Shown here piece by piece: positions 41,874-60,391 of a DNA stretch of 64,000 bases. The notes under the pieces were generated by a model. The model saw only the letters and a program-made list of their open reading frames with translations, ran no database searches and was not told the DNA's origin. The DNA lies in contig NZ_CP132480.1 of NCBI RefSeq assembly GCF_030770395.1, positions 4,954,323 to 5,018,322 on the forward strand, in the 5' to 3' direction. The translations under genes were made by a program, and so were the position numbers. The DNA is from Telluria beijingensis. GTDB taxonomy: Bacteria > Pseudomonadota > Gammaproteobacteria > Burkholderiales > Burkholderiaceae_D. The stretch's first letter is position 1. Every line of letters starts with the position of its first letter.

Positions 41874-41886
41874 CTGGTCAGGCCAG
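41874..41886. promoter_or_regulatory. GntR-type operator A1 (receptor promoter)
   Basis: CTGGTCAGGCCAG, arms CTGGTC/GGCCAG, one T/C asymmetry. It lies 66 bp before the receptor start, the most downstream of the three copies in this gap. Confidence 0.7.
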
Positions 41887-41899
41887 TTGTTGAATTCTA

Positions 41900-41905
41900 T
41901 GTCAA
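41900..41905 (-). promoter_or_regulatory. Possible -35 element of the receptor gene
   Basis: TTGACA on the minus strand is an exact sigma-70 -35 hexamer lying between operators A2 and A1. No good -10 is seen at 16-18 bp; operator A1 occupies that place. A TAGAAT follows it directly but is too close to pair with it. Confidence 0.35.
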
Positions 41906-41916
41906 CTTTTGTGTTT

Positions 41917-41929
41917 TTGGTCAGGCCAA
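41917..41929. promoter_or_regulatory. GntR-type operator A2
   Basis: TTGGTCAGGCCAA, the consensus form of the repeated 13-bp palindrome. It is centred 43 bp from A1 and 31 bp from A3. Confidence 0.75.
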
Positions 41930-41947
41930 TTGAAAAATATTTTTGAA

Positions 41948-41960
41948 CTGGCCTGACCTG
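41948..41960. promoter_or_regulatory. GntR-type operator A3
   Basis: CTGGCCTGACCTG; the reverse complement CAGGTCAGGCCAG matches the repeated palindrome with one outer mismatch. It lies 8 bp before the end of the GH28 gene. Confidence 0.65.
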
Positions 41961-41967
41961 TTGCTAT

Positions 41968-43794
41968 TCAGGTCTTTGCGTTCAGCACCTGCTTGTAGCG
42001 TTTGCCGCCAATCGTGACGTTGTCGAGAGTGACATCGACGGCGTTATGCATGAACCATGGCTGCGCGCCATTCGCCGGGGTGCCGAAATCCGAGTCGCTG
42101 ATGCGCACGCGGGCGATCGGCGGGATGGGCGTGCCAGGCTTGCCGTTGAAGCTCGACGCCACGGGCCCGAGCAGCACGAAGGCCTGGTAGCACGAGAACT
42201 TGCCCTTGCCGGCATCGACATTGCTGGCGCGGACGTTGCGGATGTCGATGTCCGATACCTGCGGCGGACGGATGCGCATGGTGTCGTCGCCCGGTACGTA
42301 GTCGCAGTCGATGGTGACGATGGCGCCGGCACTGGACGCCACCGGCACGGTGATCTCGCGCATGCCGGGCAGCGGCTTGTACAGCATCGGCTCGATCGAC
42401 ACGCCATTGGGCAGCGTCACGTCGCGCACGTACAGGTGGCGCAGGAAGCCGCCGCGGTTCATATTTGTCTTGAGCCGGATCGCCGTGTTCAGCGGGTCGT
42501 TCTTCCAGTGGATATTGCGGAACTCGAGCTTCTCGGCAAACACATACTCGATGCCGCCCGCCATCTCGCTGCCCAGCGTGACGCCGCCATGCCCGCTATT
42601 CATCACGCAGTTCTGGATCACGATATTGCGCGTCGGTCCATGCTGGGTGTCGAGGTTCTTGCCGGCCTTGATCGCGATGCAGTCGTCACCGTTGTTGAAC
42701 AGGCAGTCGTCGACCAGCACGCCGTCGCAGGCTTCCGGATCGAAGCCGTCGCTGTTCGGGCCCAGGCTTTCCATGTTCACGCGGCGAATCAGGAGATCGC
42801 GGCAGGCGACTGGATGGTGCAGCCAGAACGGCGCCGCATTGACCTGGTAGCCCTGCAGCAGCACCTTCTCGCAGCCGATCAGTTCGATCATGCAGGGCCG
42901 CAGGAAGTGGCCATGGCCGAACACGCGCTTCTCGACCGGCACGCCGGCTTCGGACAGCGCCGGCAGGTAGCGCGAATCGGTCTGCCAGCGGTCTCCCTGG
43001 CCCTGGATCGCGGCCTGTCGCCGCGCATCGATGCCTGGCACGACCTTGTCCAGCGAGGGGTTATTGGGATTGGCATACACCTCGGTGCGCTTGCGTACCG
43101 GCTTGCCGCGGCCCTTCCAGTCCCACCAGCATTCGGGACCGTCCGCGAAACCCGGCTCGAACGGCACTCCGCCCTGGCCATTGAGGATGCTGGTCCAGTC
43201 CTCGCCGGTCAGCGCGATATTGGTTTGATTGATCGCGTACACCATCGGCGAGTAGTTCAGGCAGTCGTTGCCCTGCCAGCGCGACAGTACCAGCTTGCCG
43301 TTGTCGCCGCAGTCATGCTCGCCGTGGCGGGCATAGTGCGCGGGATTGGCGGCGAAGTGCACGCGCGCGCCGGCGGCCAGGTGCACGTGCACGTTCGAGC
43401 GCAGCACGATCGGGCCGGCGCAATACCATTCTCCCTTCGGGATCACGACCCGGCCACCGCCCTTGGCGTGGCAGGCCGCGATCGCCGCTGCGATGGCCGG
43501 ATAGGCGTCGGGGGAACCCGGCGCCGGGGTGTCCAGCATGCCCTCGACCAGCGATTCGGTCTGGCCGTTCACCTTCACCAGCGTGCATGGCTTGGCGCCG
43601 TGGGCGGTGATCGGGAAATCCTCGTCGCGGAAAGTCAGGGGCGTGGCGAAGCGCGCCACGATGGCGGCGGCCCGCTGCCAGGGATCGGCCGGCTTGGCGG
43701 CGGCGCTGGCGCTATTCACGCCGCCCAGCATCAACGAGGCCGCGGGAACGGTGCGCAGCAGGGCGCGGCGCTTGGCTTGGAAAGTCATCGCCAT
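41968..43794 (-). CDS. GH28 polygalacturonase (exo-type), Tat signal
   Basis: A 608-residue secreted glycoside hydrolase family 28 enzyme that cuts polygalacturonate. The N-terminus AKRRALLRTVPAASLMLGG is a Tat-like signal. The catalytic core shows GPNSDGFDPEACDGVLVDDC, then NGDDCIAIKAG and GHGGVTLGSE, containing the three GH28 aspartates and the His, and RLKTNMNRGG supplies the conserved substrate-binding residues. The long N-terminal part and these loops resemble exo-polygalacturonases. ATG 43794 or 43788 are both possible; the latter has AAGGA 5 bases upstream. It lies 2 bp after the DUF4861 gene. Confidence 0.9.
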   Translation of the reverse strand: MAMTFQAKRRALLRTVPAASLMLGGVNSASAAAKPADPWQRAAAIVARFATPLTFRDEDFPITAHGAKPCTLVKVNGQTESLVEGMLDTPAPGSPDAYPAIAAAIAACHAKGGGRVVIPKGEWYCAGPIVLRSNVHVHLAAGARVHFAANPAHYARHGEHDCGDNGKLVLSRWQGNDCLNYSPMVYAINQTNIALTGEDWTSILNGQGGVPFEPGFADGPECWWDWKGRGKPVRKRTEVYANPNNPSLDKVVPGIDARRQAAIQGQGDRWQTDSRYLPALSEAGVPVEKRVFGHGHFLRPCMIELIGCEKVLLQGYQVNAAPFWLHHPVACRDLLIRRVNMESLGPNSDGFDPEACDGVLVDDCLFNNGDDCIAIKAGKNLDTQHGPTRNIVIQNCVMNSGHGGVTLGSEMAGGIEYVFAEKLEFRNIHWKNDPLNTAIRLKTNMNRGGFLRHLYVRDVTLPNGVSIEPMLYKPLPGMREITVPVASSAGAIVTIDCDYVPGDDTMRIRPPQVSDIDIRNVRASNVDAGKGKFSCYQAFVLLGPVASSFNGKPGTPIPPIARVRISDSDFGTPANGAQPWFMHNAVDVTLDNVTIGGKRYKQVLNAKT

Positions 43795-43796
43795 CC

Positions 43797-45008
43797 TTAT
43801 TTCGCCCCCTGGATGGTCACGCGCACCGGGCTGGCGTCGCGCGCGGCGATGTCCTGGGCCTGGCGTTCCCATTGGGCGCGGCTGGTGATCTCGCCGGCGC
43901 GGCTCCAGGCGGCGCCGGCGTAGTAGCGCAGCGGCTGGCCCGGTGTGGATTTCGCGAACACAAGTTCGTTCAGCGTGTCTTGCGCGAAGCCCTCGGCATT
44001 CGGCAGCACGATGGCGGTGCCGAAGGCGTCGTTGCTCTTCTGCTCGACCCACTGCAGCAGCACTTTGCCGTCGCGGCCGACCTGGATCTTCGCATCCTGG
44101 CCCTTGTCGCTCGGCGTCTTGTTCAGGCCCACGGCCACCGTGAGCGGCGTAGTGTCGCCAGCTGTGGTGGTGAAGGTGCTGTCGATGCGGTCCAGCCAGT
44201 GGCCGGCGTCGACCGTGAAGCGCTTGACTTCGCTCACCTGGCGGCCACCGGCATCCCACGGCGCGTAGTGCAGCTCGAAGATGGCGCGGATCGGTCCATT
44301 GGCCAGGATCTTGTAGCTGGCGTAGTTCACGCCCGTGTACAGCGTCTTGCCGTCCCAGATGCCGGCGCCGCCGGCGCCGCGGGACTTGCCGACGTTGTAC
44401 ATGTCCATGCCTTCCCCCTGGTCCTTGTGGTAATGGTCATGGCCCTTGTTGTACCAGCGGTCGACGATCGGATAATCCACGCGCTTGAACCAGATATCGA
44501 GGCCGCTGGTCACCAGCACCTCCTTGACCACGCCGGCTGGCGCCGGCGCCGCCAGCGCGGGGCCATAGGTGCGGTGCGCGACCTTGTCGTTTTCCCACGC
44601 GAAGTCGTCGAGGCGCTCCGGTACATGGCGCGCGAAGGCCTTGATGGGGAAGGGCGGCGCCACGCCGTCGATGCGCTCGACGGTGAAGCTGGCGCTCTTT
44701 TCTCCAGCCTTGAAGCTGTGCTGGAACAGCAGTTCGCCATAGGCGATGCCTTCGTTTTTCGGGTCCTTGGCCTGCGGCGCGATATTCGTCACCTGGTGCG
44801 GCAGCACCCGGCCACTGGCGTCCTTGACGGCGATCTTCTGGATCATCGCGCCGGGCATGGCGGCGTTGACGTCCTTCCATGGGATCGAGATGGTTTCCGA
44901 CGGACGGGCGATGGCCAGGTCGTGCTGCACGGTGACGCCAAACCTGTCCTGGGCGTGGCCTGGCGCGAATGCCGCCGCCAGCGTGGCTGCGAGTACGAGT
45001 CGTTGCAT
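43797..45008 (-). CDS. DUF4861 domain protein (secreted)
   Basis: A 403-residue secreted protein. The signal ends near residue 19 (APGHAQ). The rest matches the DUF4861 pattern I know from pectin/rhamnogalacturonan loci of Bacteroidetes and proteobacteria: HYHKDQGEGMDMYNVGKSRGAGGAGIWDG in the middle and EVKRFTVDAGHWLDRIDSTF after it. It is probably a beta-sandwich enzyme or binding protein acting on galacturonan, but no activity can be read from the sequence. Middle gene of the GH105-DUF4861-GH28 operon, 13 bp after GH105. Confidence 0.75.
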   Translation of the reverse strand: MQRLVLAATLAAAFAPGHAQDRFGVTVQHDLAIARPSETISIPWKDVNAAMPGAMIQKIAVKDASGRVLPHQVTNIAPQAKDPKNEGIAYGELLFQHSFKAGEKSASFTVERIDGVAPPFPIKAFARHVPERLDDFAWENDKVAHRTYGPALAAPAPAGVVKEVLVTSGLDIWFKRVDYPIVDRWYNKGHDHYHKDQGEGMDMYNVGKSRGAGGAGIWDGKTLYTGVNYASYKILANGPIRAIFELHYAPWDAGGRQVSEVKRFTVDAGHWLDRIDSTFTTTAGDTTPLTVAVGLNKTPSDKGQDAKIQVGRDGKVLLQWVEQKSNDAFGTAIVLPNAEGFAQDTLNELVFAKSTPGQPLRYYAGAAWSRAGEITSRAQWERQAQDIAARDASPVRVTIQGAK

Positions 45009-45021
45009 GGTATCCCCTTGA

Positions 45022-46419
45022 TCAGTGGTGTTCGCGGTAGTCGGTCTGGCCGCCCTTGGGCATGTAGTGGTAGGTGCGCACTTTGTGCTGCACCTCGAAT
45101 GCCGGATTCTTCACCAGGCGGATGATCTCGGCGCCGGCCATCAGCATCGGGCCGTAGCCGTGCAGCGCGTCGACGCTGGTCGGGCGGTGGTAGTAATAGA
45201 CCATGTCGCTGGCCAGGGTCGTGCCCACGCACGTGCCTTCGACCTGGCCCAGCGAATTGATGCGGGTCGACAGCGCGTTCCAGCCGGCCTGCGCGATCGA
45301 ACCATAGGTGGTGGGGCTGATCCAGCCTTCGTTGACCGCGTGCGCGAACACATAGGTGAACATGGCGCTGGCCGAGGTTTCAAGATACGAGTCGTTCCGG
45401 TCCAGCATCTGGTGCCACAGGCCGCTGCCGCTTTGCAGCTCGGCGATGCCTTTCAGCGAGGCGCGCAGCTGGGCCAGCACTTTCGGGTAGCCCGGATGGT
45501 CCATCGGCAGCACGTCGAGCAGGTCGGACATCGCCAGCACCGCCCAGCCATTGGCGCGCGCCCAGTAGAAGCGCGGCGCGTCCTGGTGGTTGGCGTGCCA
45601 GCCGTGGGTGTACAGGCCCAGCTGCGGATTGAACATGCGGCTCGACATGCCCAGTACATTGTTGACGGCGTCGTCGAAGTGCTCGCGCTTGCCGGTCAGG
45701 CGGCCCATCTCGGCCAGCGCCGGGATGCTCATATACATATCGTCGGCCCACAGCGAGACTTCCTGCGGACGCTTGCGCGCCATGGTGCCGTCTTCCAGCC
45801 GGAACTGGCGCTTGGCGACCCAGTCGCTGCAGGTGTCGATCATGTTCTTCAGGTCGGGGCCGACCTTGGCCAGGCGCGCCCGGATCAGGGCCGCGCACAT
45901 CGAGCCGCTGTCGTCCAGCGAGCGCGGATCGAGGAAGCGCGAGAAGCTGTTGGCGCGTTCGAGCTTGAACTTCTGTTCTTGGGCGCTGAAGTATGGGAGG
46001 GTCTCGGAGAAGAACTGGAAGTGGCGGCGGGTCATGGCAGTGAAGCCGTTGTCGCCGGTGGCCTGGGCGGCTTTGAGCAGGCCCGAATGGACGACGCCCA
46101 TTTCATACACCTGGATGCCGTAGTCGCCGGCGCTGCGCTCGAAGATGGCGTCCGCATTGGGCGTACGGAGATCGGTGATCGGCTGGCCGGTGCGCTTGCT
46201 GACGATGCGGGTCGGCGTGGCGCGGTCCATGAATGCGCGGATCGCATTCAGCTGGGCCGTCACTTCGGCCACCACCGGCATCTTGTAGGGGATCGGGTAG
46301 GTTCCCTCTCCCGCATCGCCCAGGTTCGTGTTGTCGGGATTACGGTACTTGCCCTCGGCGAGGGCGGGCCCGCAAGCGAGCGCGCAGCCCAGCAGGGCTG
46401 CCAGCAAATGCAGTTTCAT
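45022..46419 (-). CDS. GH105 unsaturated rhamnogalacturonyl hydrolase
   Basis: A 465-residue secreted GH88/GH105 enzyme that removes unsaturated galacturonyl ends produced by lyases. The signal ends near residue 21 (GPALA). The (alpha/alpha)6 barrel shows VSLWADDMYMSIPALAEMG near residue 220, HGWHANHQDAPRFYWARANGWA near 275 (the WARANGW signature) and HQMLDRNDSYLETSASAMF near 345. The Asp of WADD is the likely acid. First gene of its operon, with the palindromic operators B1 and B2 in its upstream gap shared with garD. Confidence 0.9.
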   Translation of the reverse strand: MKLHLLAALLGCALACGPALAEGKYRNPDNTNLGDAGEGTYPIPYKMPVVAEVTAQLNAIRAFMDRATPTRIVSKRTGQPITDLRTPNADAIFERSAGDYGIQVYEMGVVHSGLLKAAQATGDNGFTAMTRRHFQFFSETLPYFSAQEQKFKLERANSFSRFLDPRSLDDSGSMCAALIRARLAKVGPDLKNMIDTCSDWVAKRQFRLEDGTMARKRPQEVSLWADDMYMSIPALAEMGRLTGKREHFDDAVNNVLGMSSRMFNPQLGLYTHGWHANHQDAPRFYWARANGWAVLAMSDLLDVLPMDHPGYPKVLAQLRASLKGIAELQSGSGLWHQMLDRNDSYLETSASAMFTYVFAHAVNEGWISPTTYGSIAQAGWNALSTRINSLGQVEGTCVGTTLASDMVYYYHRPTSVDALHGYGPMLMAGAEIIRLVKNPAFEVQHKVRTYHYMPKGGQTDYREHH

Positions 46420-46478
46420 GTGTCTCCAATCGGCGTTGTTGTGTTACCCGTGTTGCTTAAACTTCAGGCGATGCTCTT

Positions 46479-46491
46479 TTGGTCAGGCCAT
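46479..46491. promoter_or_regulatory. GntR-type operator B1
   Basis: TTGGTCAGGCCAT, centred 19 bp from B2. On the minus strand it overlaps the -10/start region of the GH105 promoter. Confidence 0.72.
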
Positions 46492-46518
46492 TTTAATTTG
46501 GTCAGACCAAAATCGCAA
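46490..46518 (-). promoter_or_regulatory. Predicted GH105 promoter with operator in the spacer
   Basis: On the minus strand, -35 TTGCGA (46513-46518) and -10 TAAAAT (46490-46495) are separated by exactly 17 bp. The spacer contains operator B2. Binding would directly block RNA polymerase. Confidence 0.6.
46498..46510. promoter_or_regulatory. GntR-type operator B2 (perfect palindrome)
   Basis: TTGGTCAGACCAA, the only copy with perfect arms on both sides of the central base. It fits TNGTNNNACNA. It lies in the divergent GH105/garD region. Confidence 0.78.
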
Positions 46519-46583
46519 GGTGGACTAGCCACTTTTGATTTTTGTGTGGCATACTGAAAAAGAACATCCAGACAAGGCAGACC

Positions 46584-48125
46584 ATGAACCAGCTCGTCCC
46601 CCGTATCATTCGCATGCAGGCCAGCGACAACGTAGCGATCGTCGCCAACGATGGCGGCCTGCCCGCCGGCACCGTCCTGGCCGATGGACTGGTGCTGGTC
46701 GAAGGGGTGCCGCAGGGGCACAAGGTTGCATTGGTCGACCTGCTCGACAACGATCCAGTGATCCGCTATGGCGTCATCATCGGTTACGCCAATGGCGCCA
46801 TCCCGCGCGGCAGCTGGATCTCGGAGAAAGTGCTGCACATGCCGGCTGCGCGTTCGCTCGAGGACCTGCCGATCGGCACCCGCGCCGTGACCGATTTCCC
46901 GCCGCTCGAAGGCTATACCTTCGAGGGCTACCGCAATGCCGACGGTTCGGTGGGGACGCGCAACCTGCTGGCGATCACCAGCACCGTCCAGTGCGTGTCG
47001 GGCGTGATCGAGTATGCCGTCAAGCGCATCCGCGACGAACTGCTGCCACGTTATCCGAACGTCGACGACGTGGTCTCGCTCGAGCACGTGTATGGGTGCG
47101 GGGTGGCGATCGACGCGCCCGGCGCCGACATCCCGATCCGGACCATCCGCAACCTGTCCAGGAATCCGAATTTCGGCGACGACGTCATGGTCGTCAGCCT
47201 GGGCTGCGAGAAGCTGCCGCCCACACGCCTGTTCCCGGCCGGTGCGATCCCGATCGGGTCGGCCCAGCCCTCGGTCGTCACCTTGCAGGACCAGCAGCAC
47301 GTCGGCTTCATGTCGATGATCGACAACCTGATGGCGACCGCCGAGCGCCACCTGCAAAAACTGGATGCCCGTCGCCGCGAGACCTGCCCGGCGTCCGAGC
47401 TGGTGGTGGGCGTGCAGTGCGGCGGCAGCGACGCCTTTTCGGGCGTGACCGCCAACCCGGCCGTGGGCTTCGCCACCGACCTGATCGTGCGCGCCGGCGG
47501 CGCCGTGATGTTCTCCGAAGTGACCGAGGTGCGCGACGGGATCGACCAGCTGACCGCCCGCGCGGCGTCGCCCGACATCGCCGAGGCCATGGTGCGCGAG
47601 ATGCAGTGGTACGATGACTACCTGGTGCGGGGGGGCGTGGATCGCAGCGCGAACACGACGCCGGGGAACAAGAAGGGCGGTTTGTCCAATATCGTCGAGA
47701 AGGCGATGGGATCGATCGTCAAGTCGGGCAGCACGGCCATCACCGGCGTGCTCTCGCCCGGCGACAAGCTCAAGCAGAAGGGCCTGATCTATGCCGCCAC
47801 GCCGGCCAGCGACTTCATTTGCGGTACCCTGCAGATGGCCGCCGGGATGAACGTGCACATCTTCACCACCGGCCGCGGCACGCCGTATGGCCTGGCCGCG
47901 GTCCCGGTGATCAAGATGGCGACCCGTTCCGAACTGGCGCGCCGCTGGCACGACCTGATGGACGTCGACGCCGGGCGCATCGCCACTGGCGAAGCGAGCA
48001 TCGAGGAAGTGGGTTGGGAGCTGTTCCACCTGATCCTCGACGTGGCCAGCGGCCGCCGCACCTGGGCCGAGCAGTGGAAGCTGCATAATTCGCTGGCGCT
48101 GTTCAATCCGGCGCCGGTGACGTAA
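46584..48125 (+). CDS. garD: Galactarate dehydratase
   Basis: A 513-residue UxaA/GarD family dehydratase converting galactarate to 5-dehydro-4-deoxy-D-glucarate. It matches E. coli GarD along its length as I recall it: [16 protein letters not shown] and [13 protein letters not shown] segments, [57 protein letters not shown] and [17 protein letters not shown], with conserved Cys residues. ATG 46584 follows AAGGCAG. First gene of a plus-strand operon garD-udh-mutarotase-esterase/GH43. Confidence 0.93.
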
Positions 48126-48150
48126 CTAATAGAGATAGAGGAGTGGTGGT

Positions 48151-48972
48151 ATGAGTGATGGTGTTAAGGTGGGCAAGCCGTTCAAGCGCATCCTGCTGAC
48201 CGGCGCGGCGGGCGGCCTGGGCAAGGTGCTGCGCGACCGTATCAAGCCATGGGCCGAGGTGGTGCGCCTGTCGGACGTGGCCGACCTGGGCGAGGCGCGC
48301 GAAGGTGAGGAACTGGTCCAGTGCGACCTGGCCGACAAGGAAGCGGTGCTCAAGCTCCTCGAGGGCGTCGACGCGGTGCTGCACTTCGGCGGCATCTCCA
48401 CCGAGAAGCCGTTCGAACCGATCATGCAGGCCAATATCCTGGGCGTCGCCAACCTGTACGAGGCGCTGCACAAGGCCGGCACCCGGCGCGTGGTGTTCGC
48501 CAGCTCGAACCACGCGATCGGCTACCACCGCACCACCGAAGTGCTCGACGCGAACTCGCCGACCCGTCCCGACAGCTACTATGGCCTGTCGAAGGTGTTC
48601 GGCGAGCAGATGGGGCGTTACTATTTTGATCGCTTCGGCATCGAGACGGTCTGCATCCGCATTGGTTCGAGCTTCCCGGAGCCGGCCAACAAGCGCATGA
48701 TGTCCACCTTCCTGTCCTACGACGACCTGACCGAACTCCTGCGCTGCTCGCTGTTCGCGCCGCGCGTGGGCCATACGATCGTTTACGGCCAGTCCGACAA
48801 CGACAGCACCTGGTGGGACAACCGCTTGGCCTCGCACCTGGGCTACAAGCCGAAGGACAGCTCGAGCAAGTTCGCCCACCTGTTCCCGGATACCTCCGAA
48901 TTCCCGGCCCAGGACGACGTGACCACGATGTACCAGGGCGGGAAGTTCCTGCTCGACGGCCCGCAGTATTGA
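48151..48972 (+). CDS. udh: Uronate dehydrogenase
   Basis: A 273-residue NAD-dependent SDR-type enzyme that oxidises D-galacturonate (and glucuronate) to the aldarolactone. LLTGAAGGLGKVLRDR near residue 14 binds NAD; ASSNHAIGYHR holds catalytic residues and SYYGLSKVFGEQM has the Tyr/Lys pair; IRIGSSFPEP and HTIVYG...DNDSTWWDNR match characterised Pseudomonas and Agrobacterium enzymes as I recall them. It lies 25 bp after garD with a GAGGAG site, so the two steps to galactarate breakdown are co-expressed. Confidence 0.93.
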   Translation: MSDGVKVGKPFKRILLTGAAGGLGKVLRDRIKPWAEVVRLSDVADLGEAREGEELVQCDLADKEAVLKLLEGVDAVLHFGGISTEKPFEPIMQANILGVANLYEALHKAGTRRVVFASSNHAIGYHRTTEVLDANSPTRPDSYYGLSKVFGEQMGRYYFDRFGIETVCIRIGSSFPEPANKRMMSTFLSYDDLTELLRCSLFAPRVGHTIVYGQSDNDSTWWDNRLASHLGYKPKDSSSKFAHLFPDTSEFPAQDDVTTMYQGGKFLLDGPQY

Positions 48973-48974
48973 GC

Positions 48975-49850
48975 ATGGCCGACCGCCTGCGCTTGCACAA
49001 TGGACGCCTGCTGGCCGAGATCGTGCCGCAGGCGGGCGGCGGGCTAGCCCGCCTCGACTGGGTCGCCGGATCTTCGCCGCAGCCTTTGTTGCGGGCGCTG
49101 GCGCCGGATGCGCCGGAGGTGCCGCTGCCGTCGCAACTGGCCTGCTTTCCACTCGTGCCATGGTCGAACCGCATGGCGCCAGGCGGCTTCGAGTTCGATG
49201 GCAGGCGCCACGTGCCGGCGCCGAACCGCGCCGGCGAACCCTGTCCGATCCATGGCGATGGCTGGCAGCAGGCGTGGCAGGTGGAGTCGCATACGCCTGA
49301 TGCGTTGATGTTGCGGCTCGAGCGCCACGCCGCGGCGCCGTTCTCGTACGAGGCGGCATTGCGCTATGCGCTCGAAGACGATGCCTTGGCGGTGGAGCTC
49401 GAGGTGCGCAATGCGGGCCACTTCCCCTTGCCCTTTGGCCTCGGCCTGCATCCCTGGCTGCCGGATCCGCAAGGCGCCCGGCTGCAGGCGAGGGCCACCC
49501 AGGTGTGGCTGTCAGGCGCCGACAAGCTGCCGTCGGTGTGCAGCCTGCTGCCGCCGAACTGGAATTTCGTCGAGCCGTCGCCGTTGCCGGAAGATGGCGT
49601 CGACAACGTCTTCGAGGGCTGGGACGGCGTGGCCGATATCGCCTGGCCTGCGCGCGGGCTCGGCCTGTCCATCGAGGCGAATATGGATTACTTCATCCTG
49701 TATGCGCCGCCGGGTCGCGATTTCTTCTGCTTCGAGCCGGTCGACCATCCGATCAATGCCCACAATATGACGGGCTATCCGGGCTTGAGCATTCTCCCGC
49801 CCGGGGCCAGCCTGCGCCGCCGCGTCCTATTTCGGGGGCGCGCGCTGTGA
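48975..49850 (+). CDS. Aldose 1-epimerase (mutarotase)
   Basis: A 291-residue galactose-mutarotase-like protein. The first catalytic His is in CPIHGDGWQQAW near residue 90, the second in FGLGLHPWLPDP near 160, and a Glu in FCFEPVDHPINAHN near 257. The ATG at 48975 is 2 bp after the udh stop. In this operon it probably speeds anomer exchange of galacturonate or of arabinose/galactose released from pectin side chains; substrate is inferred. Confidence 0.85.
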   Translation: MADRLRLHNGRLLAEIVPQAGGGLARLDWVAGSSPQPLLRALAPDAPEVPLPSQLACFPLVPWSNRMAPGGFEFDGRRHVPAPNRAGEPCPIHGDGWQQAWQVESHTPDALMLRLERHAAAPFSYEAALRYALEDDALAVELEVRNAGHFPLPFGLGLHPWLPDPQGARLQARATQVWLSGADKLPSVCSLLPPNWNFVEPSPLPEDGVDNVFEGWDGVADIAWPARGLGLSIEANMDYFILYAPPGRDFFCFEPVDHPINAHNMTGYPGLSILPPGASLRRRVLFRGRAL

Positions 49851-52270
49851 GGCTGCAGTTGCCGGCACTGCTGGCGCTGTTGCCGCTGGCCGCGGCGGCG
49901 CAGCCCTACAATGCCGAGACCACCTACCGCAAGCTAGCCGCCGACTATCCGTTCATCCGCATCGCGGCCAGCACGGCGCCGGGCCCGGTGCAGGTGCGCA
50001 AGGACGTGGTGTACGCGCGTCGCGGCGACCTCGATCTGGCGCTGGACCTGTACCTGCCAGGCCCGGCCCGCCAGGCGGCGCCGCTGGTCGTGCTGGTCCA
50101 TGGCGGAGGGTGGCGCAGCGGAGATCGCAGCGAGATGGCGCCGCTGGCGGCGCGCCTGGCCGCGCGCGGCTATGCGGCGGCCAGCGTCAGCTACCGCCTG
50201 TCCGGCCAGGCGCGCTATCCGGCGGCGGTCGATGACGTCCGGGATGCCGTGGCCTGGCTGCGCGCGAATGCCGCGCGTTTCAATCTCGATCCGGGCCGCG
50301 TGGCGATCGCAGGCGGTTCGGCAGGCGGACAGATCGCCTCGCTGGTCGGCATGACGGATGCCGGCGCCCTGCGCGCGGTCGTGAATATCGACGGACTGTC
50401 CGACTTCACGTCCACCGAAGCGCTGCGCCACGAAGACGATCCCGCCAAGAATCCGTCGGCGGCCGGCGCCTGGTTCGGTGGACGCTATGCCGAACAACGC
50501 GCGCTGTGGCATGCGGCCTCGCCGATCGCCCATGTCGACAAGGCGAGCCCGCCGGTGCTGTTCATCGTCAGCGGCGCGCCGCGCTTTTCGGCCGGGCGCG
50601 AGGCAATGAGCGCGAAACTGCAGGGCCATGGCATCCTGGCCGAGACCGTGGCGCTGCCGGGCACCCCGCATGCATTCTGGCTGTTCGATCCGTGGCTGGC
50701 GCCGACCGTCGATGCGATGGACGATTTCCTCGGCCGCGTGCTCGGCAAGCCGCCGGCGCGCGCGCCGTGGTCGCCCGACCTGGGCAATGGCCGCTACCGC
50801 AATCCGATCCTGCACGCCGACTATTCCGATCCGGACGTGATCCGCGTCGGCGACACCTACTACATGGTGGCGTCGAGCTTCGCCAATGCGCCCGGCCTGC
50901 CGCTATTGACCTCGAAGGACATGGTCAACTGGGAGCTGGTGGGCCATGCGCTGCCGCGCCTCGTGCCCGTGGCGGCGTTCGCGGCGCCGCAGCACGGCAA
51001 GGGCGTGTGGGCGCCATGCCTGCGCTATCACGACGGCAAATTCTGGATCTTTTATCCGGACCCTGACCAGGGCGTGTTCGTCACCACTTCTACCAGTTTC
51101 ACCGGGCCATGGAGCGCGCCGCATTTGATCTTGCCGGGCAAGGGCATCATCGACCCCACCCCGCTGTGGGACGACGATGGCCAGGCGTGGCTGCTGCACG
51201 CCTGGGCCGAGAGTCGCGCCGGATTTAACAACGTGCTGACCCTGCGTCGCATGGCGCCGGACGGACGCAGCCTGCTCGACGAGGGCGGCAAGGTGGTCAT
51301 CGACGGCAACCGCCTGCCGGCCTACCGCACGCTGGAAGGGCCGAAGCTGTACAAGAAGGATGGCTGGTACTACGTGTTCGCGCCTGCCGGTGGCGTGGAA
51401 CACGGCTGGCAATCGGTGTTCCGTTCGCGCTCGATCGAGGGGCCTTACGAAGACCGCATCGTGCTGGCCCAGTCGACCACCGATATCAATGGCCCGCACC
51501 AGGGCGCCTGGGTCTCGACGCCGGAAGGGACAGACTGGTTCTTCCACTTCCAGGACAAGCGCGCCTATGGCCGCGTGGTGCACTTGCAGCCGATGCGCTG
51601 GCAGGACGGCTGGCCGCTGATCGGCGCGCCGTCAAGCGCGCCGGGTGTCGGACAGCCGGTGCTGGAGCATGCCAAGCCGGTAGCGGGCGCCTTCGCGCGG
51701 CGCGAGCCTGCCGTTGGCGATGAATTCGATGGCAGCAAGCTCGGACCCCAGTGGCAATGGGCGGGCAACTGGCAGGCCGACTGGTATGCGATCGGCGACG
51801 GCAAGCTGCGCCTGATGGCCCAGCCGTCGGCGCCGCTGCGCCAGCTGGCGTCGGTGCTGACCCATAAATTCGTGGCGCCGACCTTCAGCGCGACGGCCAG
51901 CGTCAGCCTGGATGCATTGCGCGACGGCGACCAGGCCGGCTTCGGGATTGCCGGGCTGGCAGACAACTGGTTCGGCGTGCGCCGCGTCGATGGCGCCGCA
52001 CGCATCGTGATGGTGCGCTGTGGGGAAGGCGGGCCGTGCGTTGACGAGGTGGGCCCGGTGCTGCCGCGTTTTGACGCCCGCCTGCGCATCGACGTAACGG
52101 ATGGCGCAAGGGTCGCGTTTTCGTATAGTCCCGATGGTGGGCGCTTCGTACCGCTCGGCGCGCCGTTCGAAGCACGCATGGGGCGCTGGGTCGGTGCGCA
52201 ACTGGCCTTGTTCGCCACCGGGGCGCCCGGCGCGCAAGCCGCGATCGACTACGTGCGGATCACGCCCTGA
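49847..52270 (+). CDS. Bifunctional secreted esterase-GH43 hydrolase
   Basis: An 807-residue two-enzyme fusion. A signal peptide covers about residues 1-18. The N-terminal BD-FAE/carboxylesterase-like alpha/beta hydrolase has HGGGWRSGDRSE (oxyanion hole, near 85), the nucleophile GGSAGG (near 157) and GTPHAFW with the His (near 275). A GH43 five-bladed propeller starts near residue 318 (ADYSDPDVI with the base Asp), with IIDPTPLWDDDG and LEGPKLYKKDGWYY (acid Glu near 496). A beta-sandwich (DEFDGSKLGPQWQW onward) ends the protein. It probably removes acyl groups and arabinose/xylose from pectin side chains. Start GTG overlaps the epimerase stop. Confidence 0.87.
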   Translation: MRLQLPALLALLPLAAAAQPYNAETTYRKLAADYPFIRIAASTAPGPVQVRKDVVYARRGDLDLALDLYLPGPARQAAPLVVLVHGGGWRSGDRSEMAPLAARLAARGYAAASVSYRLSGQARYPAAVDDVRDAVAWLRANAARFNLDPGRVAIAGGSAGGQIASLVGMTDAGALRAVVNIDGLSDFTSTEALRHEDDPAKNPSAAGAWFGGRYAEQRALWHAASPIAHVDKASPPVLFIVSGAPRFSAGREAMSAKLQGHGILAETVALPGTPHAFWLFDPWLAPTVDAMDDFLGRVLGKPPARAPWSPDLGNGRYRNPILHADYSDPDVIRVGDTYYMVASSFANAPGLPLLTSKDMVNWELVGHALPRLVPVAAFAAPQHGKGVWAPCLRYHDGKFWIFYPDPDQGVFVTTSTSFTGPWSAPHLILPGKGIIDPTPLWDDDGQAWLLHAWAESRAGFNNVLTLRRMAPDGRSLLDEGGKVVIDGNRLPAYRTLEGPKLYKKDGWYYVFAPAGGVEHGWQSVFRSRSIEGPYEDRIVLAQSTTDINGPHQGAWVSTPEGTDWFFHFQDKRAYGRVVHLQPMRWQDGWPLIGAPSSAPGVGQPVLEHAKPVAGAFARREPAVGDEFDGSKLGPQWQWAGNWQADWYAIGDGKLRLMAQPSAPLRQLASVLTHKFVAPTFSATASVSLDALRDGDQAGFGIAGLADNWFGVRRVDGAARIVMVRCGEGGPCVDEVGPVLPRFDARLRIDVTDGARVAFSYSPDGGRFVPLGAPFEARMGRWVGAQLALFATGAPGAQAAIDYVRITP

Positions 52271-52276
52271 TGCAGG

Positions 52277-55200
52277 TCAGGGCTGGGGTTTCCATCCAGC
52301 GCCGCCATTGAAACGACCGAATACGGCGCCACGGTTCGACCGCCGGCGCGCTTCTTCCTCCCCCATGCGGTAGGCGCCGAATTCGACCGACCTGCCGTCC
52401 GGCGCCACGTTGCCGTGTTCGCGCCAGCCCGATACCACGTCGCCGGTGCGTGGATTCGGCAACGGCTGGCGCAGCCAGGCATCCTTGGCGATATGGTCAT
52501 CGACCGTGTTGCCGATGAAGGTCACATTGTCCCAGGTGTGGGCAGTGCCTGGCGAACGCGCCAGGTAGACGCTCCCTGTCGCAGGCCGATTGCCGGTAGG
52601 CCCGGTACCGTGCGTCAGCCGCGAGCGCAGGAAGACGAAGCCGGGGTCGTTGCGTTCCACGGTCCTGGCCTGCACCAGGTAGCCGCTGTTGTCCGGTGAC
52701 GCGCTGTCGCCCACGCTGCGGATCTCGCTCTCCTCGAACAGCGCTGCGCGGTTGTGTCCCCAGATGAAGTCGACGTTGCCCTCGACCAGCGAGCGGTAGA
52801 CCCAGGCATAGCCGGTCAGCTGCAAGGTGTCCTGCTCGCTGACGAAGGCGGCGTTGCGGGCGATGAAGCGGCCCTGGTCGTTGCTGAAGAATAGCGTCTC
52901 GGCCTGGGCCGAGTGGCCGTCGCTGCGGCGGGTCGTGTTGTGCAGGGTCAGGTCGCGGATTTCGAGCAGGTCGCTACCCTGGGCCAGGAACAGCGCCCGG
53001 CCTTCGGAGCCTGGATTGCGCGCGTCGCTGTTGGCGGCGCGGACGATCGTGGATTCGCGACTCTGGCCGCGCACCATCACATTGTCCTTGTCGCGCAGGT
53101 AGAGCAGTTCGGGATAGACGCCATCGCGCACGTGGACGGTCACCGTTTTCGCCCGTGGCAGCGTCATCGCATGGTCCAGCGCTCCCTGCACGGTACGGAA
53201 ATCGGCGCGGCCGTCGTCGTCCACCGTCACGCTGTCGCCCACCGGCGCGAAGGCGGTAGTGCGGAAGGTCCAGCGCGCGCCCCGGAACCCTCGAATGCGC
53301 AGAAGGGCAGGATCGACCACCGCCTCGTACTCCACCCCATGGTCGAGCAGCAAGGGCAGGCGCACGCGCACGGCATCGCCATCGACCGTGATCGCATGGT
53401 GACGCAGCAGGCGTTCCTTTCCCTTGGGACCGAGGGCGATGACCGTCTCGCCCGGGCGGATGGTCGCAACCAGGGCCCGGTCGTGACGCCGTACGATGCG
53501 CACGCTGCCGGCGCCGCTCAGGACGGGCGTCTGCTTGAATGTCATCAGCAGCGGCGTGTCGGGCGGCACGCCGCGCTCCGCGTGGGCTGGACGCAGGCGG
53601 GCCGCCGGCAGCGCGGTGCGCGCGGGGCCAGCGAAGGACTGGCCGACCTCGAGTGCGAATGCCACCTGGCTCCACGCGGGATCGGCGCCGCCGACCGTGA
53701 TGGCGGCGTGGCCCGGCCGGTGCGGAGTCACCAGCAAACCGCCATCGGACAGCGCGACCGAGGCGATGGCGGGATCGCTCGAGGTGGCTGAGGTGGCATG
53801 GCCGGCGATGACGATGCGCTCGGCTTCGTCGCCAGCCTGCAGCGCCAGCGTGTTGGCGCCAAGCCGCAGCGCGATGCGTTCGGCGGGCAGGTCGGCCGGA
53901 CCGTCGCGCAGCCCGAGCAGCGTGTGTCCTGCGACATCCCATGCCGCCGGCGCACTGGCCGCGAGCGGCGCGACCTGGCTCGACGTCACCCGTTCGCCAT
54001 CGATCCAGGCCGACAGCAGCCCGTCCTGGTTCTGCACGCGCAGCACCAGCGGCGTGCCCGCCAGCGGCGCGCGGCGCCGCACCTGCTTCAGGCGCACCGG
54101 CGCGCCGCCACGCGCTTCGAGCAGTTCAATCTGGAGCGTGGCGCCGCCGTCGATGGCGCGCACGCTGGCGCCATGCCAGTCGTCTCGGTCATCGCGCCGG
54201 GCCTGCAGCACGAACGGCGCGTCTCCCGCGCCCAGCACCAGCCTGGCCTCGACGAAGCCGCTCGCCGGATCGAGCGGGCGAGGTCCTGCATGGTCCAGCA
54301 CGTGCCGCGGCACCGCCTGCGCGGGCAGGGCCTCGAAACGGTAGGGAACGCGCCAGCCGACGTCGCCGCCGTAGGCGCAGCCGGCAAGCGGCTGGCCGTT
54401 GAGGATCGATCCTTCGTCGACGTACACGCCGGCCGTACCGCCCGGCGCCCGCACCACGTGGGCGCAGTCGCGCGCGCCCTGGACCTCATACGCATTGGCA
54501 TGCGAGACGATATGGGCTTCGGTGCCGACGCCCACGCTGTAGGCGTGCGCGTACACGGGATGCTTGCGGTCCCCGATATGGTAGTTGTTCAGCAGGTGCA
54601 CCTGGCCGTAGCGCACGCGCGGCGCACGCTCGCTGACGTGCTCGAACAGATTGGCCTTGAAGGTCACGCGCAGGTGTTCGCGGTCGCCGACGGCGCGGTC
54701 GCTGCCACCCACCAGCGTATTCTTCTCATGCAGGGCGAAACGGTTATAGGTGACGCTGACGAAGTCCGATCCATTGGTGATGTCCAGCGCGCCGTCATGG
54801 CACTGCTTCGGCATGCCGTTCTCGACCGGCTGGGTATCGTCGGTCACCGGGGCGTCCGTGAAGCTGTTGTGGTCGATCCAGACGTGGTGGGCATTCGAGA
54901 CGCTGATGCCGTCGTAGCGCGAGTTCCAGTTGCCCTTCGCGCCATCCTTCGGATCCCATTTCGGTTCGACGTCGCAGGGATTGCGCAGTTGCAGGTTGCG
55001 CACGATGACCTGCGACACGCCGGACACGCTCAGGCTGGCGTTGACGAAGCCGGCGTCCGGCGTCACGCCGACCAGTGTCGTGTTCGACGGTATGCGCACC
55101 ACGCTGCGCCGCGCCTGGTCGGCGCTGTCGCTGAACGGGCGGTCCCCACGCATGTCGATGCTGGCCGCCACGCGCACGATGCGGGCGGGCGCCTGGGCGC

Positions 55201-55369
55201 CCAGCGCCGCCAGCAATTCTTCCGGGCTGCGCACCGTGTAGACATGGCCTGGCGCCGCCATTGCGCCGCCGCGCGTGCCGCCGTCCTGCGAAGCCCATCC
55301 GTCAAAGGGCGCATGCTGGCGTTCGCCAACAACTGCTGCCAGCGCCAGCGCTGCCAGAGTGGCGCTCAT
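52277..55369 (-). CDS. Multidomain pectate lyase (PL1)-pectin methylesterase (CE8)
   Basis: A 1030-residue fusion. Residues about 40-370 are a PL1 pectate lyase, with HHVWIDHNSFTDAP, DGALDITNGSDFVSVTYNRF, HEKNTLVGGSD and RAPRVRYGQVHLLNNYH. A linker of about 340 residues has a laminin-G-like region (RLVLGAGDAPFVLQARRDD) and Ig-like parts. From about 712 is a CE8 methylesterase: QAETLFFSNDQGRF, EQDTLQLTG and the active-site GNVDFIWG near 863. One protein could thus de-esterify and cleave pectin. The signal peptide is weak (MSATLAALALAAVVG). The ATG overlaps the CE12 stop. It is convergent with the GH43 fusion, 6 bp apart. Confidence 0.9.
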   Translation of the reverse strand: MSATLAALALAAVVGERQHAPFDGWASQDGGTRGGAMAAPGHVYTVRSPEELLAALGAQAPARIVRVAASIDMRGDRPFSDSADQARRSVVRIPSNTTLVGVTPDAGFVNASLSVSGVSQVIVRNLQLRNPCDVEPKWDPKDGAKGNWNSRYDGISVSNAHHVWIDHNSFTDAPVTDDTQPVENGMPKQCHDGALDITNGSDFVSVTYNRFALHEKNTLVGGSDRAVGDREHLRVTFKANLFEHVSERAPRVRYGQVHLLNNYHIGDRKHPVYAHAYSVGVGTEAHIVSHANAYEVQGARDCAHVVRAPGGTAGVYVDEGSILNGQPLAGCAYGGDVGWRVPYRFEALPAQAVPRHVLDHAGPRPLDPASGFVEARLVLGAGDAPFVLQARRDDRDDWHGASVRAIDGGATLQIELLEARGGAPVRLKQVRRRAPLAGTPLVLRVQNQDGLLSAWIDGERVTSSQVAPLAASAPAAWDVAGHTLLGLRDGPADLPAERIALRLGANTLALQAGDEAERIVIAGHATSATSSDPAIASVALSDGGLLVTPHRPGHAAITVGGADPAWSQVAFALEVGQSFAGPARTALPAARLRPAHAERGVPPDTPLLMTFKQTPVLSGAGSVRIVRRHDRALVATIRPGETVIALGPKGKERLLRHHAITVDGDAVRVRLPLLLDHGVEYEAVVDPALLRIRGFRGARWTFRTTAFAPVGDSVTVDDDGRADFRTVQGALDHAMTLPRAKTVTVHVRDGVYPELLYLRDKDNVMVRGQSRESTIVRAANSDARNPGSEGRALFLAQGSDLLEIRDLTLHNTTRRSDGHSAQAETLFFSNDQGRFIARNAAFVSEQDTLQLTGYAWVYRSLVEGNVDFIWGHNRAALFEESEIRSVGDSASPDNSGYLVQARTVERNDPGFVFLRSRLTHGTGPTGNRPATGSVYLARSPGTAHTWDNVTFIGNTVDDHIAKDAWLRQPLPNPRTGDVVSGWREHGNVAPDGRSVEFGAYRMGEEEARRRSNRGAVFGRFNGGAGWKPQP

Positions 55370-56082
55370 CGTGCGCTCCCGAAGGCGGCGACGATGGCAG
55401 GCACACGCCGCCGCAACTCGCCGGCCACCATGCCGGCGTAGCGTTCGGCGCCGGCCGGCCCCACGTGCGTGTGGTCGAAGTTGGCGCCGGCGCGGGCCAG
55501 GGCATCGGCCTTGTCCGGCCCCATGGCCTGGATGTCGGCCATCGACAGTGCGTTCAGGTCGAGCAGCGGGGCGTTCGTCTCGCGCGCGACCTGGCGCACG
55601 GCGGCCGACCAGGGGGCGAGGTCGTCATGCACCCAGGCGCCGCGGAAGCTGCGGCGGCTCAGGGGCGTCACCAGCACAGGAATGCCGCCGGCCGCGCGCG
55701 CCTCCATCACGTAGCGCCGCATATTGGCCGGGAATTCATGCACGTAGTCGGTCGAACGCCCCGGCTTGCCCGGCTGGTCGTTGTGGCCGAACTGGATCAG
55801 TACATAGCTTGCCGCGAAGCCGTCGGTCGCCGAGAGCAGCGATCGCACCTCGTCCCAGCGCCCCTCGACGCGAAAGCTCCCCGAACTGCGCCCACCGCGC
55901 GCCAGGTTGTGGCAGGCGGTGTCAGGCGTGAGGCGCGCGCACAGGGCGTCGCCATAGCCGGTGCTGCTGGCCATGGTGGAGTCGCCGACGAGGATCACGC
56001 GCAGCGGCTTGTCGGGCGCGGCGATGGCGCCGGCCGCGAAGAGAGACAGCAGGAGGGGGCGGGCACGAGGAAATACAGGCAT
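55366..56082 (-). CDS. Rhamnogalacturonan acetylesterase (CE12, SGNH)
   Basis: A 238-residue secreted deacetylase for rhamnogalacturonan or pectin. The signal peptide ends near residue 22. SGNH blocks are intact: GDSTMAS (Ser35), ARGGRSSGSF (Gly), IQFGHNDQPG (Asn) and NFDHTHVGPAGAE (Asp/His). This set is typical of RhgT/YesT-like enzymes. ATG 56082 has GGAG 7 bases upstream; a TTG two codons earlier is rejected. It leads a two-gene operon with the PL1-CE8 fusion and has operator C1 within its promoter. Confidence 0.9.
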   Translation of the reverse strand: MPVFPRARPLLLSLFAAGAIAAPDKPLRVILVGDSTMASSTGYGDALCARLTPDTACHNLARGGRSSGSFRVEGRWDEVRSLLSATDGFAASYVLIQFGHNDQPGKPGRSTDYVHEFPANMRRYVMEARAAGGIPVLVTPLSRRSFRGAWVHDDLAPWSAAVRQVARETNAPLLDLNALSMADIQAMGPDKADALARAGANFDHTHVGPAGAERYAGMVAGELRRRVPAIVAAFGSAR

Positions 56083-56106
56083 GGGCAAACTCCAGGGGTT
56101 TGCCCG

Positions 56107-56135
56107 ATTCTATTTTGGCCTGACCAATTAAGCAA
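56107..56135 (-). promoter_or_regulatory. Predicted CE12 promoter with operator in the spacer
   Basis: On the minus strand, -35 TTGCTT (56130-56135) and -10 TAGAAT (56107-56112) are 17 bp apart, and the spacer holds operator C1. Same arrangement as the GH105 and GntR promoters. Confidence 0.62.
56115..56127. promoter_or_regulatory. GntR-type operator C1
   Basis: TTGGCCTGACCAA, the reverse complement of the consensus TTGGTCAGGCCAA. Centred in the CE12 promoter spacer, 21 bp from C2. Confidence 0.76.
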
Positions 56136-56148
56136 GCGGTCAGGCCAT
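56136..56148. promoter_or_regulatory. GntR-type operator C2 (weaker)
   Basis: GCGGTCAGGCCAT: right half intact, left two bases changed. It sits just upstream of the CE12 -35 and 9 bp from the end of the GntR gene. Confidence 0.55.
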
Positions 56149-56156
56149 TTGAATGC

Positions 56157-56855
56157 TCAGCCGCGTGAGAAGGTGCGCGTGACGCGCTCGAGGTGGGCGC
56201 GCATCGCGGCGCGCGCTCCCGGCGCGTCGTGGGAGGCGATGGCGGCCAGGATGTTGCGGTGGTCGAGCAGGGTCTGCTTGCGCAATTCCTCGGTCTGGAA
56301 GTGTTCCTTCAGCTTGTGCCACAGGCTGCCGCGCTGGTTCCACAGGTATTCGATCACCCCGACCATGGCGGTATTGCCGGTGGCGCGCGCCAGCGCCAGG
56401 TGGAAGTTGCGGTCGGCGTTTTCGTTGCTGGCGCGGTCGTCGTGCTGGCGTTCCATCTCTTCGACCGCCTTCAGGATGGCGTCGATGGCCGAATCGGTGG
56501 CGTTCTTGGCGGCCAGTGCCGCGATCTCGGATTCGATCATGCGGCGCGCGGCCAGCACTTCGAACGGGCCGGGGCCGGCCTCGGGCACGTCGGACGGCGC
56601 GACCGCCTTCTCGCTGACATAGACACCGGAGCCGCCGCGCACCTCGACGATCTCGGACAGTTCCAGCACGATCAGCGCCTCGCGCAGCGACGCCCGGCTG
56701 ACCTCGAGCTTGGCGGCCAGTTCGCGTTCCGCCGGCAGCCGGGTGCCGGGCTGGATGTTCTCATCCCGGATCAGGTCCTGGATGCGCGCGGCGACGACGC
56801 GGTAGAGTCGTGGTTCGCCCTGGCTAGTCTCGGTGCTGGCTGGTGCTTTTTTCAT
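56157..56855 (-). CDS. FadR-type GntR regulator (FCD domain) 1
   Basis: A 232-residue regulator. The N-terminal GntR winged helix (residues about 15-80) has GTRLPAERELAAKLEVSRASLREALIVLELSEIVEVRGGSG-type features. The C-terminal FCD helical domain follows, with NFHLALARATGN and LDHRNILAAIASHDAPGARAAM supplying the usual metal or ligand His/Asp set. It probably senses galacturonate, galactarate or a pathway intermediate. Its own promoter contains operator D, so autoregulation is likely. It is divergent from the second GntR gene. Confidence 0.88.
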   Translation of the reverse strand: MKKAPASTETSQGEPRLYRVVAARIQDLIRDENIQPGTRLPAERELAAKLEVSRASLREALIVLELSEIVEVRGGSGVYVSEKAVAPSDVPEAGPGPFEVLAARRMIESEIAALAAKNATDSAIDAILKAVEEMERQHDDRASNENADRNFHLALARATGNTAMVGVIEYLWNQRGSLWHKLKEHFQTEELRKQTLLDHRNILAAIASHDAPGARAAMRAHLERVTRTFSRG

Positions 56856-56907
56856 GTGGCGAATGCGCTCTCGGCTCGATGACCGGTGGGTAAGTGACGG
56901 TCACACG

Positions 56908-56936
56908 ATTCTAATTTGGCCAGACCAATCCCGCAA
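56908..56936 (-). promoter_or_regulatory. Predicted promoter of GntR gene 1 with operator in the spacer
   Basis: On the minus strand, -35 TTGCGG (56931-56936) and -10 TAGAAT (56908-56913) are 17 bp apart, with operator D in the spacer. Sequence around it is nearly the same as at 46490-46518. Confidence 0.62.
56916..56928. promoter_or_regulatory. GntR-type operator D
   Basis: TTGGCCAGACCAA, one T/C change from the perfect copy B2. It lies between the two divergent GntR genes and could control both. Confidence 0.75.
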
Positions 56937-56949
56937 GGTGGACATACCA

Positions 56950-56986
56950 ATGTCTGGAGAAAAGACGTCTGCTCATAAGATGTCTG
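56950..56986. repeat. Three AYGTCTG direct repeats, 15-bp period
   Basis: ATGTCTG at 56950-56956, ACGTCTG at 56965-56971 and ATGTCTG at 56980-56986 start exactly 15 bp apart. They lie upstream of a TATAAT and before the second GntR gene. They may be protein-binding repeats. Confidence 0.45.
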
Positions 56987-57002
56987 ACGACTTGTTGTGG
57001 GG

Positions 57003-58796: not shown

Positions 58797-58798
58797 TC

Positions 58799-60385: not shown

Positions 60386-60391
60386 CGCCTC

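Follow-up and report, generated by a model that had tools for sequence, protein, structure and literature searches.

Proposed operator and promoter module of a UxuR-related GntR regulator in the pectin locus of Telluria beijingensis

The genome of Telluria beijingensis is a single contig of 6,017,275 bases, of which a stretch of 64,000 nucleotides (NZ_CP132480.1, positions 4,954,323 to 5,018,322; hereafter the window) was analysed. Pectin and aldarate genes span positions 38857-62894 of the window, from a TonB-dependent receptor gene through an SMP-30 lactonase-like gene, and include two neighbouring genes for FCD-type GntR regulators, here called GntR1 and GntR2. A 13-bp palindrome recurs between the genes of this locus and, judging from sequence, it quite likely serves as the operator for GntR1, which is related to UxuR and would act as a repressor through a promoter module until released by a pectin-derived uronate. 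We infer binding, repression and the inducer from the sites, their geometry, their conservation and their linkage to GntR1, all of which are read directly in the DNA.

Regulons of the GntR/FadR kind are known, and what is new is the GntR1 regulon and its fixed promoter module. No description of either, or of pectin regulation in Massilia, was found in the literature searched, which did not cover the main hexuronate-regulon paper. For the use of pectin by Massilia and its kin they provide a regulator, an operator and a regulon that can be tested, and the fixed three-box promoter would be a clean system for cooperative repression in the GntR family. In addition, two neighbouring GntR regulators are set apart by one operator base and one residue of the helix-turn-helix (HTH), and garD is a natural case of a gene that seems to have switched regulator.

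Predicted promoter modules and palindromes in the window

The new element is a predicted rigid module consisting of box I (GG-N5-CC), the −35, the operator TTGGTCNGACCAA, the −10 and a second operator. In the promoters of the CE12, GH105 and gntR1 genes the operator fills a 17-bp spacer between a TTG-type −35 and TAGAAT or TAAAAT (Table 1). The operators of the TonB-receptor promoter are spaced 31 and 43 bp, the latter spacing being present in 8 of the 59 pieces examined, window counted. Helical phasing was considered and dropped, as 31, 43 and 22 bp come close to full helical turns and 19 bp does not.

A first-pass annotation of this DNA had counted eight copies of the palindrome. A palindrome of the type lies at all eight places, but only three of them (41917, 46498 and, on the minus strand, 56115) match TTGGTCAGRCCAA exactly, while 46479 and 56916 have one mismatch and 41874, 41948 and 56136 have two or three. 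Conversely, no further copies had been noticed, and the weak boxes at 46520-46532 and 56938-56950, which belong to the same modules, had been missed.

The most likely reading is that GntR1 keeps garD, the genes for uptake and depolymerisation of pectin and, in this genome, its own gene repressed until it is released by a uronate derived from pectin. In the CE12-PL1/CE8, GH105-DUF4861-GH28 and gntR1 promoters, one GntR1 dimer would sit on TTGGTCNGACCAA in the spacer that separates the −35 from the −10. Further dimers would occupy the GG-N5-CC box, a weaker site adjoining the −35 on its upstream side, and at GH105 also the second operator overlapping the −10. The three operators of the TonB-receptor promoter would play the same role. 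RNA polymerase would thus be excluded until the uronate binds the FCD domain and the repressor leaves. The divergent garD gene would be under the module of GH105, and GntR2 would separately control its own kdgD-lactonase operon via its own box. Such a geometry points to repression in which RNA polymerase is kept out and, in this genome, to autoregulation. Residues D148, H152, H199 and H221, which we take to be the metal ligands of the FCD domain, are invariant in GntR1. Because of this, and because UxuR and ExuR are reported to respond to galacturonate and glucuronate (PMC9369180), we infer that the inducer is a pectin-derived uronate.

Loose matches to the palindrome are common in the window: at ≤3 mismatches there were 32 strand matches vs. 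16.9 expected (100 shuffles, largest 28). A GntR1 matrix was built from 49 distinct sites of relatives at ≤2 mismatches to the consensus, with the host genome and its nearest relative excluded, although these training sites were themselves picked by consensus. It ranked 46498, 41917, 56115, 56916 and 46479 first to fifth in the window, the genic site 8930 sixth and 41874 seventh, and placed 56136 (score 8.1) and 41948 (7.7) at background level; relatives nevertheless keep the weak sites, and with similar spacing. Eight hits in the window reached score 12 vs. a mean of 0.93 in 100 Markov sequences (largest 5), and 11 reached score 8 vs. 5.5 (largest 11).

In the whole genome, the core TGGTCNGRCCA occurs at 27 places. 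Six of these are in the pectin locus and all six are intergenic. Among the other 21, 19 fall within called genes, one is intergenic and one lies where no gene was called. The core thus stands out in the genome by its placement and not by over-representation as such (29 strand matches vs. 85 for its backward control); the 13-mer at ≤2 mismatches gave 246 strand matches vs. 110 for its control. A wider regulon in the host genome was discarded, given that only 1 of the 21 other core matches was clearly intergenic, this one being situated between two genes that, on inspection by eye, look like those of a Kef-type antiporter and of Hsp20. As for the ≤2-mismatch matches, the first 30 loci among the matches listed were looked at; one site among them, at 415515, is intergenic and scores 14.1, and two overlapping ones (1368626/1368637) lie at a gene end.

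Conservation of the module in relatives

The named GntR1 loci studied were the best 80 of 536, with ≤8 kb on each side, in which some species appear twice and several entries are metagenome bins. At ≤1 mismatch they contain 90 sites between genes and 1 within genes, while 59 control palindromes with a permuted half-site gave means of 0.85 (largest 5) and 2.9, respectively. Genes were called with a codon-usage script trained on window genes; it missed likely genes in Undibacterium loci, where "intergenic" is uncertain, the control palindromes being equally affected. An intergenic site was present in 66 of the 80 loci (by label, Massilia 32/37, Duganella 15/15, Undibacterium 9/11, Pseudoduganella 1/4, Herbaspirillum 0/1, Telluria 1/1 and other or metagenome-derived 8/11).

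The operator (≤3 mismatches) together with TA[AG]AAT at the fixed distance was found upstream of 16/24 CE12, 16/18 GH105 and 1/12 TonB-receptor genes, and an operator lies ≤320 bp from 11 of these 12 TonB-receptor genes. Thirty-seven promoters of the CE12, GH105 and gntR1 kinds were preselected for operator and TA[AG]AAT, and only their −35 and box I counts are independent of this selection: the −35 retains TTG in 36, and GG-N5-CC stands 19 or 20 bp upstream in 36, where the background is 0.8% per position.

Tandem operators at 19 bp form 47 pairs across 45 of the 80 loci, whereas none of 15 control palindromes gave more than 3 pairs in total or more than 2 with one and the same spacing. The consensus of the 47 pairs is atttGGCTAGTCCACaTTGC.tAt-TTGGtCtgACCAc-aTTAgA-ATGGcCTGACCAa. 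Where the target was identified, the pair precedes GH105 in loci of Massilia and Pseudoduganella and in 2/15 of Duganella, and GntR1 in the remaining 13/15 Duganella loci; for most Undibacterium pairs no clear target emerged. The box I pattern GGCTAGTCCRNNTTGC had 33 matches in 29 of 81 genomes, all 29 GntR1-positive, and its backward control 36 matches (summed), other genomes included. Of 30 matches fetched, 29 had a second operator at +20 and 28 a third at +39.

These arrangements leave room for a wider scenario, which we advance tentatively, as possible rather than probable. A UxuR-type repressor may have evolved a promoter clamp of three dimers at 22- and 19-bp steps, with the −35 in one gap and the −10 in the other. 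Massilia-type loci have this cassette upstream of GH105 and most Duganella loci upstream of gntR1, and garD may have passed to it from a GguR-type regulator by operator exchange.

Probable assignment of the palindrome to GntR1

With orthologues called at E ≤1e-40 (absence meaning no match at E 1e-40), GntR1 is present in 35/81 genomes and GntR2 in 41/81. The 34 same-genus genomes with GntR1, 33 of which have both regulators, contain 69 exact TTGGTCNGRCCAA sites, 45 of them ≤30 kb from a GntR1 vs. 0.9 expected. No exact site occurs in five same-genus genomes with GntR2 only, and 5 occur in the 10 with neither regulator. Another 25 are spread over 32 genomes from other families, where none is close to a GntR1. 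With the looser matrix (≥11.5, intergenic), at least one site was found in 19/20 fetched loci with both regulator genes and in 7/8 loci where GntR1 lies apart from GntR2, whereas 8 of the 12 GntR2 loci without GntR1 had no match. The first-pass annotation is supported in its proposal of a pectin regulon whose operator is of the FadR type (TKGT-N3-ACMA), with an FCD GntR regulator encoded alongside, but it had let both GntR proteins share the operator. Since the exact sites cluster near GntR1, the five GntR2-only genomes lack them and GntR2 has a box of its own, the regulator is best assigned, on these sequence grounds, to GntR1 and not to both. The site described as between the two GntR genes is indeed located there, but in the likely promoter of GntR1 and not in that of GntR2.

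Two observations come from other genomes. GntR1 paralogues with 54-57% identity in genomes G037 and G042 are encoded within ~12 kb of the same operator (L158:7663-8470, L158:19810, L160:16969), near an FGGY kinase and an isomerase-like gene (L158) or a XylR-type regulator (L160), and cross-talk is possible. In G045, TTGGTCAGACCAA (L175:7986) lies between a glucuronate isomerase gene (uxaC) and a permease gene of divergent orientation.

GntR1 and GntR2 compared with known regulators

Both GntR1 and GntR2 had the GntR HTH (PF00392) and FCD (PF07729) domains above cut-off, and they share 31% identity. The operators of both fit the FadR/FCD frame TKGT-N2/3-ACMA, as TGGT-CNG-ACCA for GntR1 and mostly as [AT][TC]GT-CNN-AC[AG] for GntR2. 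Arginine at HTH position 28 is reported to go together with a G/C as second base in TKGT (PMC4494728). We mapped this position, by means of Pfam coordinates and the P-x-E-R stretch held in common, to Arg44, found in 10/10 GntR1 sequences, and Arg stands there in 0/16 GntR2 sequences; the second base is G in the GntR1 operator and mostly T or C in GntR2 boxes. Solved structures matched by sequence only distantly, the best being 6az6 (1.3e-18), followed by NanR 6on4, for GntR1 and PdhR 9jpj (1.8e-27) for GntR2.

Of the two Escherichia coli hexuronate regulators compared, UxuR, also an FCD GntR protein, is the closer to GntR1 (41.6% identity), with ExuR at 38%. GntR1 remained below the cut-offs of both NCBIfam equivalogs (158.8 bits vs. 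442 for UxuR and 142.5 vs. 396 for ExuR). The DNA upstream of E. coli uxuA and uxuR carries TGGT-N2-ACCA. Thus, the difference from E. coli operators that had been noted earlier holds for the centre, which is one base wider in the GntR1 operator (N3 vs. N2), but not for the half-sites TGGT/ACCA, which are the same. Unlike those of UxuR, GntR1 sites precede pectin genes and garD. ExuR sites are reported with a 3-nt centre (PMC4494728), as in the GntR1 operator; in the E. coli uxaC-exuT gap no TGGT-N1..4-ACCA was found at ≤1 mismatch, and upstream of exuR there was one such place. Upstream of E. coli uxuR (L259:7388-7420) there are two TGGT-N2-ACCA-like places, one of them mismatched, at a distance of 20 bp that resembles the tandem spacing.

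NanR of E. coli is a GntR repressor of which three dimers are reported to bind a triple-repeat operator cooperatively (PMC8012715), but its repeats are direct (GGTATA), while the GntR1 boxes are palindromic with steps of 21-22 and 19 bp. FadR of E. coli has the operator frame TKGT-N3-ACMA in common with GntR1 (PMC4494728), but differs in its genes and effector and matches GntR1 only weakly in sequence (E 0.0009).

GntR2 has its own box, GATGTCTGACGAC, at its own promoter; this is the best hit of the GntR2 matrix in the window. The box, first found by eye in upstream regions, occurs as a fixed pattern in 22/32 GntR2 upstream regions (one doubtful), commonly as GAYGTCNNACRWC and usually before TATAAT. 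Two other approaches to the GntR2 site were rejected: dyad counts in the DNA upstream of GntR2 yielded the GntR1 motif instead, owing to overlap between the regions, and GCAAGGTGGAC, shared upstream of garD and GntR2, proved to be the −35 and box I of the opposite-strand promoter. The Polaromonas GguR site has been reported as cagtcatcagacaacct / GTCATCAGACAAC (PMC8376909), and the GguR regulon as galactarate/glucarate genes (PMC5507952). GntR2 is probably a GguR-type regulator, since GTCATCAGACAAC scores 11.6 with the GntR2 matrix vs. −7.8 with that of GntR1 (for the best GntR2-matrix hit in a random 200-bp window, the 95th percentile is 8.3 and the 99th is 12.2). Likewise, both box and gene neighbourhood of GguR fit GntR2 and not GntR1.

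The type of site differs among 19 garD promoters, which suggests that garD changed regulator between a GguR-type protein and GntR1. Fourteen of them (window, L162, L164 to L174, L114) have a GntR1-type site scoring ≥16.9 and no GntR2-type box >7.4. Of the four beside GntR2 alone, three (L150, L152, L155) have a GntR2-type box ≥17.7 and no GntR1-type site, the GntR2 matrix including the garD/GntR2 intergenic sites of L152 and L155 but not that of L150. The garD genes of L117 and L141 have neither type within 200 bp, a GntR1-type site of L117 being at 209 bp.

Alternative explanations

Several results weigh against GntR1 as the general owner of the palindrome and against the module as its general form. 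The consensus promoter scan detected the GH105 promoter only, and none at CE12, gntR1 or the TonB receptor. The 45 exact sites near GntR1 stem from 16 of the 34 GntR1-positive same-genus genomes; in 12 of the 34 exact sites occur elsewhere only, in 6 there are none, and 24 of the 69 sites are not near GntR1. Among the 12 GntR2 loci without GntR1, 4 have one match each (11.5-14.1), as strong as some accepted sites. Sites are up to kilobases from GntR1 in L138, L140 and L151, GntR1 and its site are beside non-pectin genes in L142, L144 and L146, and L149 and L101 showed no site. No site at ≤1 mismatch was found in 14 of the 80 named loci, and only 5/33 GntR1 genes have the operator with TA[AG]AAT upstream. 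Finally, the relatives share ancestry and their loci are not independent.

That the palindromes are chance products of GC-rich DNA and shared ancestry agrees with the frequency of loose matches, with the background-like scores of 56136 and 41948 and with the backward controls of bare patterns, which are equally frequent or more so. We nevertheless regard it as extremely improbable in view of the 90 intergenic sites vs. 0.85 for the control palindromes, the single site within genes, and the fixed spacings kept in Massilia, Duganella and Undibacterium. Binding of the palindrome by both GntR proteins, or by a GntR1-GntR2 heterodimer, would fit two neighbouring FCD GntR genes with FadR-type boxes, the single weak matches in 4 of 12 GntR2 loci without GntR1 and the cross-regulation reported for E. 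coli ExuR and UxuR, for which heterodimers were proposed (PMC9369180). It is however quite unlikely given the five GntR2-only genomes without exact sites, the garD promoters, which carry a GntR1-type (14/19) or a GntR2-type (3/19) site and never both, and two proteins only 31% identical that differ in the residue at position 28.

The remaining alternatives accept GntR1 but not simple repression. Class II activators bind at about −42, where box I (GGCTAGTCCAC) lies, and this box could be the site of a separate activator that makes the module a combination of repressor and activator; box I is more strictly conserved than a degenerate operator requires, and the −35 is weak. We judge this rather unlikely, if the most serious of the alternatives, as box I keeps the GG-N5-CC operator frame, its centre varies among the CE12, GH105 and gntR1 promoters, and 29 of the 30 fetched box I matches (33 in 81 genomes) belong to the module, leaving no sign of a separate regulon. 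GntR1 might also be an activator or dual regulator, and for the divergent garD the operators are also far upstream; however, at three promoters the operator fills the −35/−10 spacer, where a bound dimer would block the polymerase, and an activating role seems improbable. Repression by GntR1 is the reading that we retain.

Layout of the locus

The features of the locus are given in Table 1. In several relatives (e.g., L100 to L112) CE12, PL1-CE8 and then GntR1 have the same direction, and in them GntR1 could be transcribed from the CE12 promoter.

Table 1. Genes, predicted promoters and putative regulator sites of the pectin/aldarate locus (window positions).
Feature	Position	Strand	Remarks
TonB-dependent receptor	38857..41808	-	start set at ATG 41808
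TonB-receptor operator downstream of −10, CTGGCCTGACCAG	41874..41886	-	43 bp from 41917
−10-like TAGAAT, TonB-receptor promoter	41894..41899	-	read from sequence; not in consensus scan
Main operator, TonB-receptor promoter	41917..41929	+	exact match
Weak upstream operator, TonB-receptor promoter	41948..41960	-	just behind GH28 gene; spacing 30-33 bp in relatives showing it
GH105, DUF4861, GH28 genes	41968..46419	-	leftward of module 46479-46532
GH105 operator III, ATGGCCTGACCAA	46479..46491	-	overlaps −10; 19 bp from operator II
GH105 promoter, TTGCGA (46518-46513), 17 bp, TAAAAT (46495-46490)	46490..46518	-	consensus scan and conservation
GH105 operator II, in −35/−10 spacer	46498..46510	-	exact match on + strand
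GH105 box I, GTGGCTAGTCCAC, GG-N5-CC type	46520..46532	-	adjoins −35; overlaps likely −35 region of divergent garD
garD (galactarate dehydratase), udh-like, aldose epimerase, BD-FAE/GH43 genes	46584..52270	+	
CE12-like (GDSL) and PL1-CE8 (pectate lyase and pectinesterase) genes	52277..56082	-	
Likely CE12 promoter, TTGCTT (56135-56130), 17 bp, TAGAAT (56112-56107)	56107..56135	-	absent from consensus scan
CE12 operator II, in spacer	56115..56127	-	exact match
CE12 box I, ATGGCCTGACCGC	56136..56148	-	low score, yet conserved
GntR1, UxuR-like FCD regulator (P0001)	56157..56855	-	proposed repressor
Likely gntR1 promoter, TTGCGG (56936-56931), 17 bp, TAGAAT (56913-56908)	56908..56936	-	absent from consensus scan
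gntR1 operator II	56916..56928	-	proposed autoregulation
gntR1 box I, TTGGTATGTCCAC	56938..56950	-	
GntR2-type (GguR-like) box, GATGTCTGACGAC	56979..56991	+	precedes GntR2 −10-like TATAAT (57003-57008)
GntR2, GguR-like FCD regulator (P0002)	57046..57774	+	
kdgD, aldehyde dehydrogenase, MFS transporter, SMP-30 lactonase-like genes	57885..62894	+	aldarate catabolism behind GntR2

Some neighbouring genes also recur in relatives. The DUF4861 (43797-44930) and DUF4380 (62863-63912) genes, of unknown function, are near pectin/galactarate genes in several relatives too. Within the pectin locus of L106, a pair of genes for a BlaI-like repressor and a BlaR1-like peptidase lies beside GntR1 (L106:11392-12955), in the place of which several other relatives have unidentified genes. 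A glucose-6-phosphate dehydrogenase gene (37202-38680) lies behind the TonB receptor gene in the same direction, as it does in L163, L164 and L174.

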